DNA from: Gammaproteobacteria bacterium
GTDB lineage: Bacteria > Pseudomonadota > Gammaproteobacteria > Nitrococcales > Nitrococcaceae
Length of the DNA stretch: 7,153 nucleotides
NCBI GenBank assembly: GCA_018334525.1
Contig: JAGXLT010000041.1
Span: 1-7,153 of the forward strand
Direction of reading: 5' to 3'
Below are positions 450 through 3,312 of the stretch, piece after piece. Position 1 is the stretch's first letter, and each line of letters starts with the position of its first letter. The notes under the pieces are model-generated. The model was not told the origin of the DNA and did not search any database. It saw only the letters and a program-made list of their open reading frames with translations. Position numbers and translations under genes: made by a program.

Positions 450-1244
450 ATGCACATTATGGGAGCCGAGTTAATTCACCCCACTTCAATTATCGATCCG
501 CAAGCCGTTATCGGACCAAATTGTCGTGTAGGACCGTATGCCGTAATTGGTGCGCATGTCGCACTTGGCGCCAATTGTACTGTGGGCGCACACGCTGTCT
601 TAGAGGGGCCTTTAGAGATGGGGCCCGATAATCGCATCGGTCCGCATGCCATACTCGGCCAGGCACCTCAGGACCTGACCTATCAGGGCGAGCCCACAAA
701 ACTACTCATTGGCCAGAGTAATGAATTTCGTGAATTTGTTACGGTCCATCGAGCGAGTACCAAAGAGGACGGTGTCACGCGAATCGGCAACCACGGTCTT
801 TTTATGGCTTATGCTCATATCGCTCACGACGACCAGATTGGCGATCATGTAATCATCAGCAACGCCACTCAGCTTGCCGGTCATGTCCATATTCAGGATC
901 AGGCTTTTATATCGGGGCTGTGTGCCATTCACCAATTTGTGCATATCGGTCGCCTGGCAATGGTGGCAGGCGGCTCAATGGTCGATCGGGATGTAGCCCC
1001 ATTTACTATGGTTGCCGGGGATCGTGCAGAACTGCGCGGGCTGAATTCCCGCGGACTGCAACGTGCGGGCATACCAACCGATCGCCGCCGCCGGCTTCGT
1101 CAGGCCTATCAGCGATTATTCCGAGACGGCTTGTCGCTAAATCAGGCGATCGACAGTGTGACCAACGAGCCTGATCTGCAAACACCGGAGGTGCATGTGC
1201 TGCTCGATTTTATTCGGCATCGAAGCCGAGGAATCACGCGATGA
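450..1244 (+). CDS. Second LpxA: UDP-GlcNAc-type O/N-acyltransferase paralogue, probably acting on UDP-GlcNAc3N
   Basis: A 264-residue LpxA-family left-handed beta-helix acyltransferase (E. coli LpxA has 262), transferring an (R)-3-hydroxyacyl chain from acyl carrier protein to a UDP-amino sugar in the cytoplasm. It opens with hexapeptide repeats (HPTSIIDPQAVIG, VGPYAVIG, LGANCTVG) and keeps the catalytic-core motif AHIAHD (catalytic His126, equivalent to E. coli His125), LAGHV and IHQF. A helical C-terminal domain ends in SRGITR. The ruler position (E. coli Gly173) is Gly174. E. coli Lys76 is replaced by Thr77 in QDLTYQGEPT; Glu200 by Arg and Arg205 by Ala in LNSRGLQRAG. By eye it is roughly 40-45% identical to the operon lpxA at 5020-5796. 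It overlaps the GnnA-like gene by 4 nt, which suggests its acceptor is UDP-GlcNAc3N; specificity is inference. The ATG at 450 was chosen; an ATG at 459 is also possible, and neither has a strong Shine-Dalgarno. A WbpD-type N-acetyltransferase is less likely because of the length and full LpxA motif set. Confidence 0.9.
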   Translation: MHIMGAELIHPTSIIDPQAVIGPNCRVGPYAVIGAHVALGANCTVGAHAVLEGPLEMGPDNRIGPHAILGQAPQDLTYQGEPTKLLIGQSNEFREFVTVHRASTKEDGVTRIGNHGLFMAYAHIAHDDQIGDHVIISNATQLAGHVHIQDQAFISGLCAIHQFVHIGRLAMVAGGSMVDRDVAPFTMVAGDRAELRGLNSRGLQRAGIPTDRRRRLRQAYQRLFRDGLSLNQAIDSVTNEPDLQTPEVHVLLDFIRHRSRGITR

Positions 1245-2188
1245 CCCGATTGCGAACGGCGGTAGTTGGCGCCGGCTATCTCGGCCGCTTTCACGCGCAA
1301 AAGTATGCAGCGCACCCAGATTGCGAGCTGATCGGCGTTGTGGATGTGGATCTGACTCGAGCCAAAAGTATTGCCGAAGAACTCGATTGCCTGGCTTTTG
1401 ACTCCGTTGACGCCATCCGCAGTCAGGTTGATGCTGTTAGCGTCGCGGCACCTACCCGGCTGCACCATGAACTCGGCCAAAGTCTGCTTGAAGCCGGCCT
1501 GCATGTGCTGATTGAAAAGCCGATGACCGTTACGGTCGCAGAGGCAGAATCTCTTATCACCGCGGCAGACAAACACGACTGCATCCTTCAGGTCGGCCAC
1601 CTGGAGCGATTTAATCCGGCAGTGGTTGCTGCGGCGGCACTGATCGACAATCCGCTGTTCATTGAATCTCATCGCATTGCACCGTTTAATCCGCGCGGGG
1701 CAGATGTCAGCGTTGTTCTTGATTTAATGATTCATGATATTGATCTGATTTTAGAGCTCGTGAACGCCGAGTTAGTGGCCATGGATGCCAGTGGGGCCGC
1801 AGTGATTTCGGACGATATTGATATGGCCAATGCTCGCCTGCGCTTTGCCAACGGCTGTGTGGCAAATGTCACCGCCAGTCGGGTCAGCCCGCGTGCCGAA
1901 CGCCGAATGCGCGTTTTTCAACGCAACGCGTATCTGTCGCTTGATTTACAAAATGGCACGTTAGATATTCAGCGACGCGATCCGCAAGCCTCGGGCCCAC
2001 CCACAATGGCGCAAATTACCCACGAACGTCTCGAGCCAGGCCGCAATGATGCGCTGGCTGATGAAATAAACAGCTTTATCAGTACGATACAAAACAAAAC
2101 TCAGCCCGTTGTAACCGGGCAGGATGGAAAACGTGCGCTTGCCGCCGCCATCGAAATCAGTCGCCAACTTACGGAGAATAGCCAATGA
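1241..2188 (+). CDS. gnnA: GnnA-like NAD-dependent UDP-GlcNAc 3-oxidoreductase (Gfo/Idh/MocA family)
   Basis: A 315-residue Gfo/Idh/MocA-family dehydrogenase. The N-terminal Rossmann fold carries the dinucleotide motif VVGAGYLGRFHAQKY (Gly10, Gly12, Gly15), followed by an acidic strand end (VVDVD, 33-37). The family's EKP motif is at 92-94 with the likely catalytic Lys93, and DLMIHDIDL (161-169) supplies the conserved His165/Asp166. In A. ferrooxidans GnnA oxidises the 3-hydroxyl of UDP-GlcNAc with NAD+ to the 3-keto sugar, the substrate of GnnB. The start ATG at 1241 overlaps the preceding lpxA stop (ATGA) and has GAGGA at 1228-1232, 8 nt upstream, so translation is probably coupled. The opening GYLGRFHAQKY resembles GnnA proteins as I remember them. 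An alternative is a WbpB-type UDP-GlcNAcA 3-dehydrogenase, but the neighbouring lpxA paralogue and lpx locus favour GnnA. Family assignment is firm; substrate is inference from context. Confidence 0.85.
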   Translation: MTRLRTAVVGAGYLGRFHAQKYAAHPDCELIGVVDVDLTRAKSIAEELDCLAFDSVDAIRSQVDAVSVAAPTRLHHELGQSLLEAGLHVLIEKPMTVTVAEAESLITAADKHDCILQVGHLERFNPAVVAAAALIDNPLFIESHRIAPFNPRGADVSVVLDLMIHDIDLILELVNAELVAMDASGAAVISDDIDMANARLRFANGCVANVTASRVSPRAERRMRVFQRNAYLSLDLQNGTLDIQRRDPQASGPPTMAQITHERLEPGRNDALADEINSFISTIQNKTQPVVTGQDGKRALAAAIEISRQLTENSQ

Positions 2189-3312
2189 CCAACCACACGG
2201 CGTCGCCAATCCCTATGGTCGATCTGACCGCTCAGTATCCGCTGATTCGCGCCGAGATTGAGAAGGGCCTGCACGCCGCATTGGATGATGCAAAGTTTAT
2301 TCTTGGCCCCAATGTTCAGGCCTTTGAGAAGGCCTCTGCTGAGTACTTAGGGGTGGCCCATGCCGTTGGTTGTGCCTCAGGCACTGATGCGCTTCATTTG
2401 GCATTGCGGGCGGCCGGCGTTGGCCCCGGTGATGAAGTCATCACCACACCGTTTAGTTTTATCGCTACGGCTGAAGCTATTTGCTACGTGGGTGCCACAC
2501 CAAAATTTGTGGATATTGACCCGGCCACTTTTAATATCGATCCGGCTGCTGTTGCTGAGGCCATTACCGACCGGACCCGGGCGATCATGCCGGTCCATCT
2601 TTTCGGGCAGCCTGCCGATCTACCAGCTCTTTCCAAACTGGCAGACAAACACAACCTGACTTTAGTTGAAGACTGTGCCCAGTCATTTGGCGCATCAATC
2701 GATCAGCAAATGACCGGCAGTATTGGTGCGCTGGGTGCGTTTAGCTTCTTTCCCAGTAAAAACCTGGGTGGCTACGGTGATGGCGGCCTGGTCACCACCA
2801 ATGACGACGTGCTGGCAACCGAGCTGAATGTGCTGCGCAATCATGGTAGCCGTGAGCGATATCACCACCAGTGCATCGGCTTAAACAGCCGGCTTGATGA
2901 GCTTCAGGCCGTTATCCTGCAGGCAAAGTTGCCGCATATTGATTCGTTTAATGACGGCAGACGACGTGTAGCCCATCATTACACTGCGGCATTGTCTGAG
3001 TTACCCGGATTTACGCCACCGTATGAAGATGGCATCGGGCGGCATGTCTATCACCAGTACACCGTGCTTTGCGACGAGCCTGAGCAACGACACGAGGTAA
3101 TGGATCGCCTGAAGGCGGCTGACATCGCCAGCGCTGTGTACTACCCGATTCCATTGCACCAGCAGGAAGCGTTTGCGCATACCCATCCCCCGACACTGCC
3201 TATTGCTGAGTCGATTGCTAAACGATGCTTTTCTTTGCCGATGTATCCGGAGCTATCCCTGACCGACGCAGACCGGGTTATTGCGGCGATTGCGCACTCA
3301 GTGCGCGCCTGA
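2185..3312 (+). CDS. gnnB: GnnB-like PLP-dependent UDP-3-keto-GlcNAc aminotransferase (DegT/DnrJ/EryC1 family)
   Basis: A 375-residue sugar aminotransferase of the DegT/DnrJ/EryC1 family. It shows the PLP-phosphate-binding CASGTDAL (63-70), TTPFSFIATAEA (87-98), VEDCAQSFGA (161-170) with Asp163 expected to contact the PLP pyridine nitrogen, and SFFPSKNLGGYGDGG with the Schiff-base Lys192. It then has RNHGSRERYHH and the GLNSRLDELQA motif (232-242). In the GnnAB pathway this enzyme transfers an amino group, from glutamate in the characterised system, to the 3-keto intermediate made by GnnA, yielding UDP-GlcNAc3N. The start ATG overlaps the gnnA stop by 4 nt (ATGA) and is preceded by GGAG (2173-2176) at 8 nt. 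The 3' end overlaps the convergent rnhB by 35 nt. WbpE, which acts on a 3-keto uronic acid nucleotide, is a close relative and cannot be excluded from sequence alone; the neighbouring lpxA paralogue supports GnnB. Confidence 0.85.
   Translation: MTNHTASPIPMVDLTAQYPLIRAEIEKGLHAALDDAKFILGPNVQAFEKASAEYLGVAHAVGCASGTDALHLALRAAGVGPGDEVITTPFSFIATAEAICYVGATPKFVDIDPATFNIDPAAVAEAITDRTRAIMPVHLFGQPADLPALSKLADKHNLTLVEDCAQSFGASIDQQMTGSIGALGAFSFFPSKNLGGYGDGGLVTTNDDVLATELNVLRNHGSRERYHHQCIGLNSRLDELQAVILQAKLPHIDSFNDGRRRVAHHYTAALSELPGFTPPYEDGIGRHVYHQYTVLCDEPEQRHEVMDRLKAADIASAVYYPIPLHQQEAFAHTHPPTLPIAESIAKRCFSLPMYPELSLTDADRVIAAIAHSVRA

Follow-up and report, generated by a model that had tools for sequence, protein, structure and literature searches.

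An lpxA-gnnA-gnnB set between rnhB and dnaE in the Spiribacter group, a predicted side entry into mixed ester/amide lipid A

Introduction

Lipid A is the outer-membrane anchor of lipopolysaccharide (LPS) and the part of it that immune receptors recognise, and exchanging ester for amide linkages or changing chain length alters both stability and recognition. The GnnA/GnnB enzymes and the LpxA of Acidithiobacillus ferrooxidans were reportedly described by Sweet et al. in 2004 (cited in PMC8036547); gnnA and gnnB presumably lie within the main lpx cluster of that species, which we take to have one LpxA. The Leptospira LpxA favours the 3-amino form of UDP-N-acetylglucosamine (UDP-GlcNAc), that is, UDP-GlcNAc3N. 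In Capnocytophaga canimorsus, two lpxA genes with gnnA and gnnB are already known to be tied to a hybrid backbone of diamino sugar and glucosamine (GlcN3N-GlcN): the excerpt available of PMC3342949 states that this backbone exceeds 95%, that GlcN3N sits at its non-reducing end and that the 3 and 3' chains differ. Here, we analyse a 7,153-base stretch of DNA (the window), in which a second lpxA gene (lpxA2) is joined to gnnA and gnnB beside a canonical lpx operon that has its own lpxA (lpxA1). We propose, with a probability of roughly 0.6, that this set opens a side entry of its own into lipid A synthesis and would yield mixed ester/amide lipid A.

The route that we infer, with its enzyme activities, chain lengths and hybrid product, is the following. 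GnnA and GnnB likely convert UDP-GlcNAc into the 3-amino sugar UDP-GlcNAc3N. LpxA2 likely N-acylates the 3-amino group of this sugar, forming an amide, with its own, longer fatty acid. In parallel, LpxA1 likely esterifies UDP-GlcNAc with a shorter (C10) 3-hydroxy acid. Both acylated products would then enter the shared LpxC, LpxD and LpxB steps and give mostly hybrid GlcN3N/GlcN disaccharides.

Results

The window is one entire contig of a metagenome-assembled genome (MAG, 74% complete) of a Spiribacter group bacterium, whose closest named relative is Spiribacter salilacus C176, with 80-96% protein identity across the locus. The lpxA2-gnnA-gnnB set occupies positions 450-3312 of the plus strand, flanked by rnhB and dnaE, and its genes are joined by ATGA overlaps at 1241-1244 (lpxA2/gnnA) and 2185-2188 (gnnA/gnnB). 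On the minus strand lie lpxD-fabZ-lpxA1-lpxB-rnhB and the first part of dnaE. Open reading frames, overlaps and profile scans thus agree with the initial annotation, which had described such a set on the strand opposite to the lpx operon and splitting rnhB from dnaE.

The association of a second LpxA with GnnA was evaluated in 206 evenly drawn genomes of the class, all of them 95% complete or more, the window's own excepted, a match at E<=1e-40 being taken as GnnA-positive. GnnA was found in 74 of the 206; amide-type lipid A may be far commoner in this class than one would expect from known structures. Two or more LpxA matches were present in 28 genomes, 27 of them GnnA-positive. As the second match of the 28th, GnnA-negative genome (G208) is weak and partial (E 5e-22, 32%), we count 27/74 GnnA-positive against 0/132 GnnA-negative genomes, or 1/132 if G208 is kept (Fisher p 2.5e-14, and 7e-14 without the window's genome, relatedness being ignored in both). 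No LpxA match whatsoever was obtained in 5 of the 132 GnnA-negative genomes. Within the window's own family, the genome search that had been suggested at the outset found gnn sets with a second lpxA in 10 of 23 genomes. The claim that a second acyltransferase travels with the gnn genes while the canonical lpxA is retained is supported by these counts.

LpxA2 has the features of a complete LpxA. It scored above the family cut-offs over its full length (TIGR01852, 319 bits for a cut-off of 231; NF003657, 343 bits for a cut-off of 226), as did LpxA1 (337 and 359 bits, respectively), to which it is 44% identical, and PF13720 is present. The catalytic pair His125/Asp126 (His126/Asp127 in LpxA2) and the pocket residues His122, His144 and His160 are all retained. 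The acceptor-site Lys76 of UDP-GlcNAc-type LpxAs, present in LpxA1, is replaced by Thr77 in LpxA2, in alignments to solved LpxAs that are gapless around residues 76 and 173. This lysine contacts the acceptor ring oxygen in a product complex of the Escherichia coli enzyme (PMC6286764, in the excerpt available), and its Pseudomonas aeruginosa counterpart, Lys72, contacts the acceptor 6-OH (PMC7072397). Its absence would make UDP-GlcNAc a less probable substrate of LpxA2 and leaves the membership of the LpxA family intact.

Loss of this lysine recurs wherever the set was scored in the order. Set-linked LpxA2 proteins had T, G, S or A at position 76 in 26 of 26 cases, a 27th (G030) being broken over contigs and unscored, and the partner LpxA1 had K in 27 of 27. 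In the class sample, scoring covered 51 of the 127 GnnA-negative genomes with an LpxA match and 30 of the 47 GnnA-positive genomes with a single LpxA. Among the matches listed, K76 was found in 51/51 GnnA-negative LpxAs and was missing from 11/30 single LpxAs of GnnA-positive genomes. In 24 of the 26 two-LpxA genomes besides the window's, one copy had K and another G, S, T or N. Arg occupies this position in P0009, which comes from a metagenome and is closely related to LpxA2. On an LpxA tree that included only every third GnnA-negative row, the K76 pattern needed 12 changes, at least 7 of them on supported branches.

Several observations weigh against our proposal and must be set beside these counts. 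A second LpxA is unnecessary for the use of GnnA, since 47 of the 74 GnnA-positive class genomes have none, and 19 of the 30 scored single LpxAs of such genomes, among the matches listed, retain K76. Genome G262 has K76 in both LpxA copies and G142 in neither, and G221 shows the reverse arrangement, with K in the divergent copy and none in the canonical one. In family f4, G76 was found in 11/11 genomes of the genera g15 and g16, none of which matched GnnA at E<=1e-40; a further f4 genome (G041) has GnnA yet K76. Linked LpxAs of Geobacter and other Desulfuromonadales (L107, L127, L137, L161 and L168, among others) also retain K. For the Leptospira LpxA, PMC7072397 gives the residue as Gly71 in a table and as Phe72 in the text. 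Lastly, a tree-aware pair test of K76 against GnnA was underpowered, with 2-3 usable pairs, none of them opposite in direction. We rejected loss of K76 as a strict marker of GnnA, given the g15/g16 genomes and the Geobacter-type LpxAs, and regard it as a strong, if leaky, sign. The G76 of g15/g16 might reflect either a divergent GnnA that was missed or another cause of K76 loss.

Three lineages drew attention during this scoring. The 11 single LpxAs of g15/g16 (L345-L355) all read QHKGY near this position, with G76 and His at 74. In Legionella/Fluoribacter genomes with gnnA (L186, L189, L191, L194), the single LpxA has Thr76 and Arg173 and, where included in the tree, is nested among K76 LpxAs. 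In Methylobacter/Methylomicrobium (L205, L207, L208), an ordinary K76/M173 LpxA accompanies a second, non-K/G173 LpxA that is distant from gnnA; two LpxAs were present in 5/5 methylotroph genomes with GnnA, the second copy being scored in 3.

Could LpxA2 simply be a chain-length isozyme acting on UDP-GlcNAc, with the GnnA/GnnB product accepted by LpxA1 or by either copy? The ruler residues do differ between the two copies (see below), the second LpxAs of Psychrobacter cryohalolentis and Segatella copri have been interpreted as a source of acyl-chain diversity (PMC4557000 and PMC12643348, in the excerpts available), and many GnnA-positive genomes make do with one LpxA, often with K76. A duplication that served chain length on UDP-GlcNAc sits poorly with a class sample in which, barring the weak partial match of G208, no genome lacking GnnA has a second LpxA, and with a lysine lost from every scored set-linked LpxA2 and kept in every partner. 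We consider this explanation unlikely.

The second diagnostic position is the acyl-length ruler. In E. coli LpxA, the G173M substitution shifts the preference from C14 to C10, and M169G does the reverse in the P. aeruginosa enzyme (PMC6408518). Gly173 was found in 26/26 LpxA2 of the order, and the 27 partner LpxA1 had Met (24) or Phe (3). Across the 26 class genomes with two LpxAs, Gly or Ala occupied this position in 23 of the 26 copies without K, and Met in 19 of the 27 copies with K. Residues 76 and 173 together therefore lead us to predict that GlcN carries a short chain in ester linkage and GlcN3N a longer one in amide linkage. Published chemistry of Spiribacter salinus fits this prediction, because its single LpxA has K76/M173 and its lipid A, as described in PMC5923411, has a disaccharide of glucosamine that bears 10:0(3-OH) at both 3 and 3' as well as C14 acids in amide linkage.

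The identity of the two other enzymes was assessed by comparison with solved structures and protein families. The Gfo/Idh protein best matched the Protein Data Bank (PDB) entries 7bvj/7bvk, nearly over its full length (E 7e-72, 44% identity over 299 residues), and the runner-up was at 6e-22, which supports its designation as GnnA-like, as the initial annotation had it. We take 7bvj to be the A. ferrooxidans GnnA; judging by its title, a paper on a structure of that protein exists. NF040723, an archaeal-type UDP-GlcNAc 3-dehydrogenase family, was the top NCBIfam hit, but its 204 bits fell short of the cut-off of 450. GnnB scored 421 bits with PF01041, as a DegT transaminase joined to gnnA. The ranking of its PDB matches does not discriminate GnnB from WbpE, as identities were 44% to WbpE, 44% to 7b0d and 46% to 2oga; counting partial matches, it is 55-74% identical to GnnB proteins encoded next to GnnA in other genera.

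One might imagine that the product of the set is a 3-acylamido sugar destined for the O-antigen or some other glycan, in the manner of Wbp or Qdt pathways, and not for lipid A. A Gfo/Idh gene, a DegT gene and a left-handed beta-helix acyltransferase are a layout common to such pathways, and the resemblance of GnnB to WbpE would suit it. In the Wbp type, a UDP-GlcNAc 6-dehydrogenase and a short N-acetyltransferase stand beside the Gfo/Idh and DegT genes, and neither is among the identified genes of the window. Moreover, the acyltransferase here is a complete LpxA that has PF13720 and the ruler Gly, the best solved match of the oxidoreductase is 7bvj, no chain named WbpB or WlbA occurs among the matches listed for it (60 of 87), and the position beside lpx genes is conserved across two families. 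A glycan role thus seems very improbable.

We then come back to the side entry into lipid A synthesis and to the steps that follow LpxA. Each of the 10 family carriers has a single LpxB and a single LpxD; for LpxC, 9 of them gave one match and the incomplete MAG of the window gave none, so that a second LpxC match occurred in no carrier of the family. Hybrid disaccharides are expected on these grounds. In family f3, additional LpxB matches were seen in 2 genomes and additional LpxD matches in 4, some of them at contig ends. The initial annotation had left the choice between ester- and amide-linked lipid A side by side and mixed disaccharides, possibly depending on conditions. Single LpxB/LpxD, the lack of a second LpxC and the figure given for C. 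canimorsus in the excerpt cited above make the mixed disaccharides the better supported of the two; condition dependence found no such backing, as neither a promoter nor an RNA element was conspicuous.

This also bears on the idea that the same enzymes make an all-amide (GlcN3N-GlcN3N) lipid A population separate from an all-ester one, perhaps according to growth condition. Being transcribed divergently and lying away from the canonical genes, the set could be switched independently. Yet promoter-like sites did not exceed chance (1 found for 3.2 expected), there was no Rfam match, the family carriers have no second LpxB that would keep two pools apart, and C. canimorsus makes mostly hybrid molecules. 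Two separate populations are improbable in our eyes, if somewhat less so than the isozyme.

As to the history of the set, GnnA occurs in the same 10 family genomes as the second LpxA. In all ten, gnnA adjoins lpxA2 and the set lies tail to tail with rnhB; dnaE is divergent on the far side in nine, and the contig of the tenth (L040) stops short of it. Among the 13 non-carriers, 11 loci were fetched and rnhB and dnaE were adjacent in 11/11, with 52-261 bases separating the matches; they are also adjacent in E. coli K-12. Cultured carriers are S. salilacus, S. insolitus (G010) and Sediminicurvatus halobius (G008), and S. salinus M19-40 (G014) and UAH-SP71 (G009), the latter named S. curvatus (PMC5818414), are both without the set. 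Across the order, GnnA was found in 28 of 54 genomes, including 14/14 of family f3, where the set is flanked by rnhB and dnaE in 12 of 14 loci; L089 stops before dnaE and L093 inside gnnB. Three genomes of families f2 and f5 have lpxA2-gnnA with no rnhB, dnaE or lpxB in the fetched stretch; gnnB comes next in two, and in G053 the fetched stretch has no gnnB match.

A tree of set proteins from 22 genomes agreed with a tree of the lpxD-fabZ-lpxA1-lpxB-rnhB-dnaE proteins from 33 genomes, the incomplete f3 loci L089 and L093 being excluded from both. The branching of f3 was identical and the supported in-genus pairs matched; G011, G017 and G019 were placed differently, with weak support. Presence and absence of the set need 3 changes on the tree, S. 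salinus being separate from the S. curvatus group. The guanine plus cytosine (GC) content of the set genes is 0.54-0.55 against 0.53-0.58 for their neighbours, and their ratio of nonsynonymous to synonymous polymorphism (pN/pS) is 0.10-0.13 against 0.05-0.17, that is, a similar coding constraint. We therefore rejected a recent insertion, since composition and pN/pS are neighbour-like and the set tree tracks the core tree. The word "inserted" in the initial annotation was accordingly misleading: the arrangement recurs in two families and is old. We read the set as an old, selected and optional module that was passed on by vertical descent and lost on more than one occasion.

Features of the window

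The coordinates of all features are collected in Table 1. LpxA2 may start at 450 or at a second ATG at 459, the latter corresponding to where the S. salilacus homologue (P0002) starts. At the other end of the set, the 3' ends of gnnB and rnhB overlap by 35 bases (3278-3312), a tight fit that suggests long joint residence.

Table 1. Positions and assignments of genes, codons and the intergenic gap in the window
Feature	Coordinates	Strand	Length	Assignment and evidence
dnaE, start	1..375	-	first 125 codons	flanks the set on the right; 43% identical to E. coli DnaE across 120 residues
gap between divergent dnaE and lpxA2 starts	376..449		74 bases	no promoter-like match found in it
lpxA2	450..1244	+	264 aa	second LpxA-family acyltransferase, predicted UDP-GlcNAc3N N-acylation; TIGR01852, NF003657, PF13720
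LpxA2 Thr77 codon	678..680	+		place of E. coli LpxA acceptor-site Lys76; alignment
LpxA2 Gly174 codon	969..971	+		acyl-length ruler position (E. coli Gly173); alignment
gnnA	1241..2188	+	315 aa	Gfo/Idh oxidoreductase, predicted UDP-GlcNAc 3-dehydrogenase; PF01408, best PDB match 7bvj
gnnB	2185..3312	+	375 aa	DegT-family aminotransferase, predicted 3-ketosugar transaminase; PF01041, adjoins gnnA in the order and other lineages
rnhB	3278..3886	-		left flank of the set; NF000596 above cut-off
lpxB	3876..5009	-		lipid A disaccharide synthase; TIGR00215 above cut-off; sole LpxB match in the MAG
lpxA1	5020..5814	-		canonical LpxA; Lys68 (K76 place, codon 5583-5581), Met165 (ruler, codon 5292-5290)
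fabZ	5793..6260	-		NF000582 above cut-off
lpxD	6250..7152	-		open at window edge; TIGR01853 above cut-off; sole LpxD match in the MAG

Discussion

Beyond this locus, we give about even odds to a more general scheme. Many Gammaproteobacteria would run in parallel a short-chain ester LpxA acting on UDP-GlcNAc and a paralogous long-chain amide LpxA acting on UDP-GlcNAc3N; the products of both would enter a single LpxC-LpxD-LpxB line and yield asymmetric hybrid lipid A, with chemistry and chain length largely readable from GnnA and residues 76/173. In Spiribacter, this would be an optional branch dropped by several species, the ordinary route being kept. If our proposal is right, GnnA together with a second LpxA and residues 76/173 would serve as a genomic rule for predicting backbone chemistry, testable in about one third of the sampled class. 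Moreover, carriers on the one hand, and S. salinus, whose structure is known, and S. curvatus on the other, would form natural in-genus pairs for studying the benefit of amide-linked lipid A at high salt. Searches of the open-access literature returned no prior description of the lpxA2-gnnA-gnnB set or of the 76/173 residue pattern and, as a point against the proposal, no lipid A chemistry or enzyme data for a set carrier.

Second LpxAs are described elsewhere. Duplication of lpxA was reported in Geobacter (PMC3087551, in the excerpt available). In S. copri and Psychrobacter, a second LpxA stands beside the usual one, as here, but has no link to gnnA/gnnB in the excerpts available; the excerpt of PMC12643348 reports no GlcN3N for the two lpxA genes of S. 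copri, which also counts against our reading. Legionella, considered as a two-LpxA precedent, was not borne out, with one LpxA in each of the 4 Legionella/Fluoribacter genomes searched. A second and divergent LpxA match was, however, present in G221, which also has an LpxA almost the same as the L. wadsworthii protein.

A different arrangement occupies the same chromosomal block in other Gammaproteobacteria, where 11 of 80 loci (L102, L103, L113, L114, L129, L153, L158, L164, L170, L173 and L177) have gnnA(-gnnB)-lpxB sets beside rnhB on the opposite strand. These carry, in the stead of lpxA2, a divergent lpxB whose product is 33-37% identical to that of the window, and 7 of the 8 such genomes searched had one LpxA, the eighth having two. 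The rnhB block thus seems to take two kinds of GlcN3N set.

The likeness to A. ferrooxidans lies in GnnA, 44% identical to 7bvj, and in LpxA: the Acidithiobacillus LpxAs (P0042, P0047) have G76 and G173 and, in the LpxA tree that the initial annotation had suggested, form the supported sister of the set LpxA2 clade (88). Here, unlike in A. ferrooxidans, the set is separate and a canonical LpxA is retained. The closest parallel remains C. canimorsus, with two LpxA genes, gnnA and gnnB within one genome. Its chemistry is solved, unlike that of the set carriers studied here. According to the excerpt of PMC3342949, lpxA, lpxA', lpxC and lpxD are clustered in C. canimorsus and the other genes dispersed, whereas here lpxA2 is joined by overlaps to gnnA and gnnB between rnhB and dnaE.

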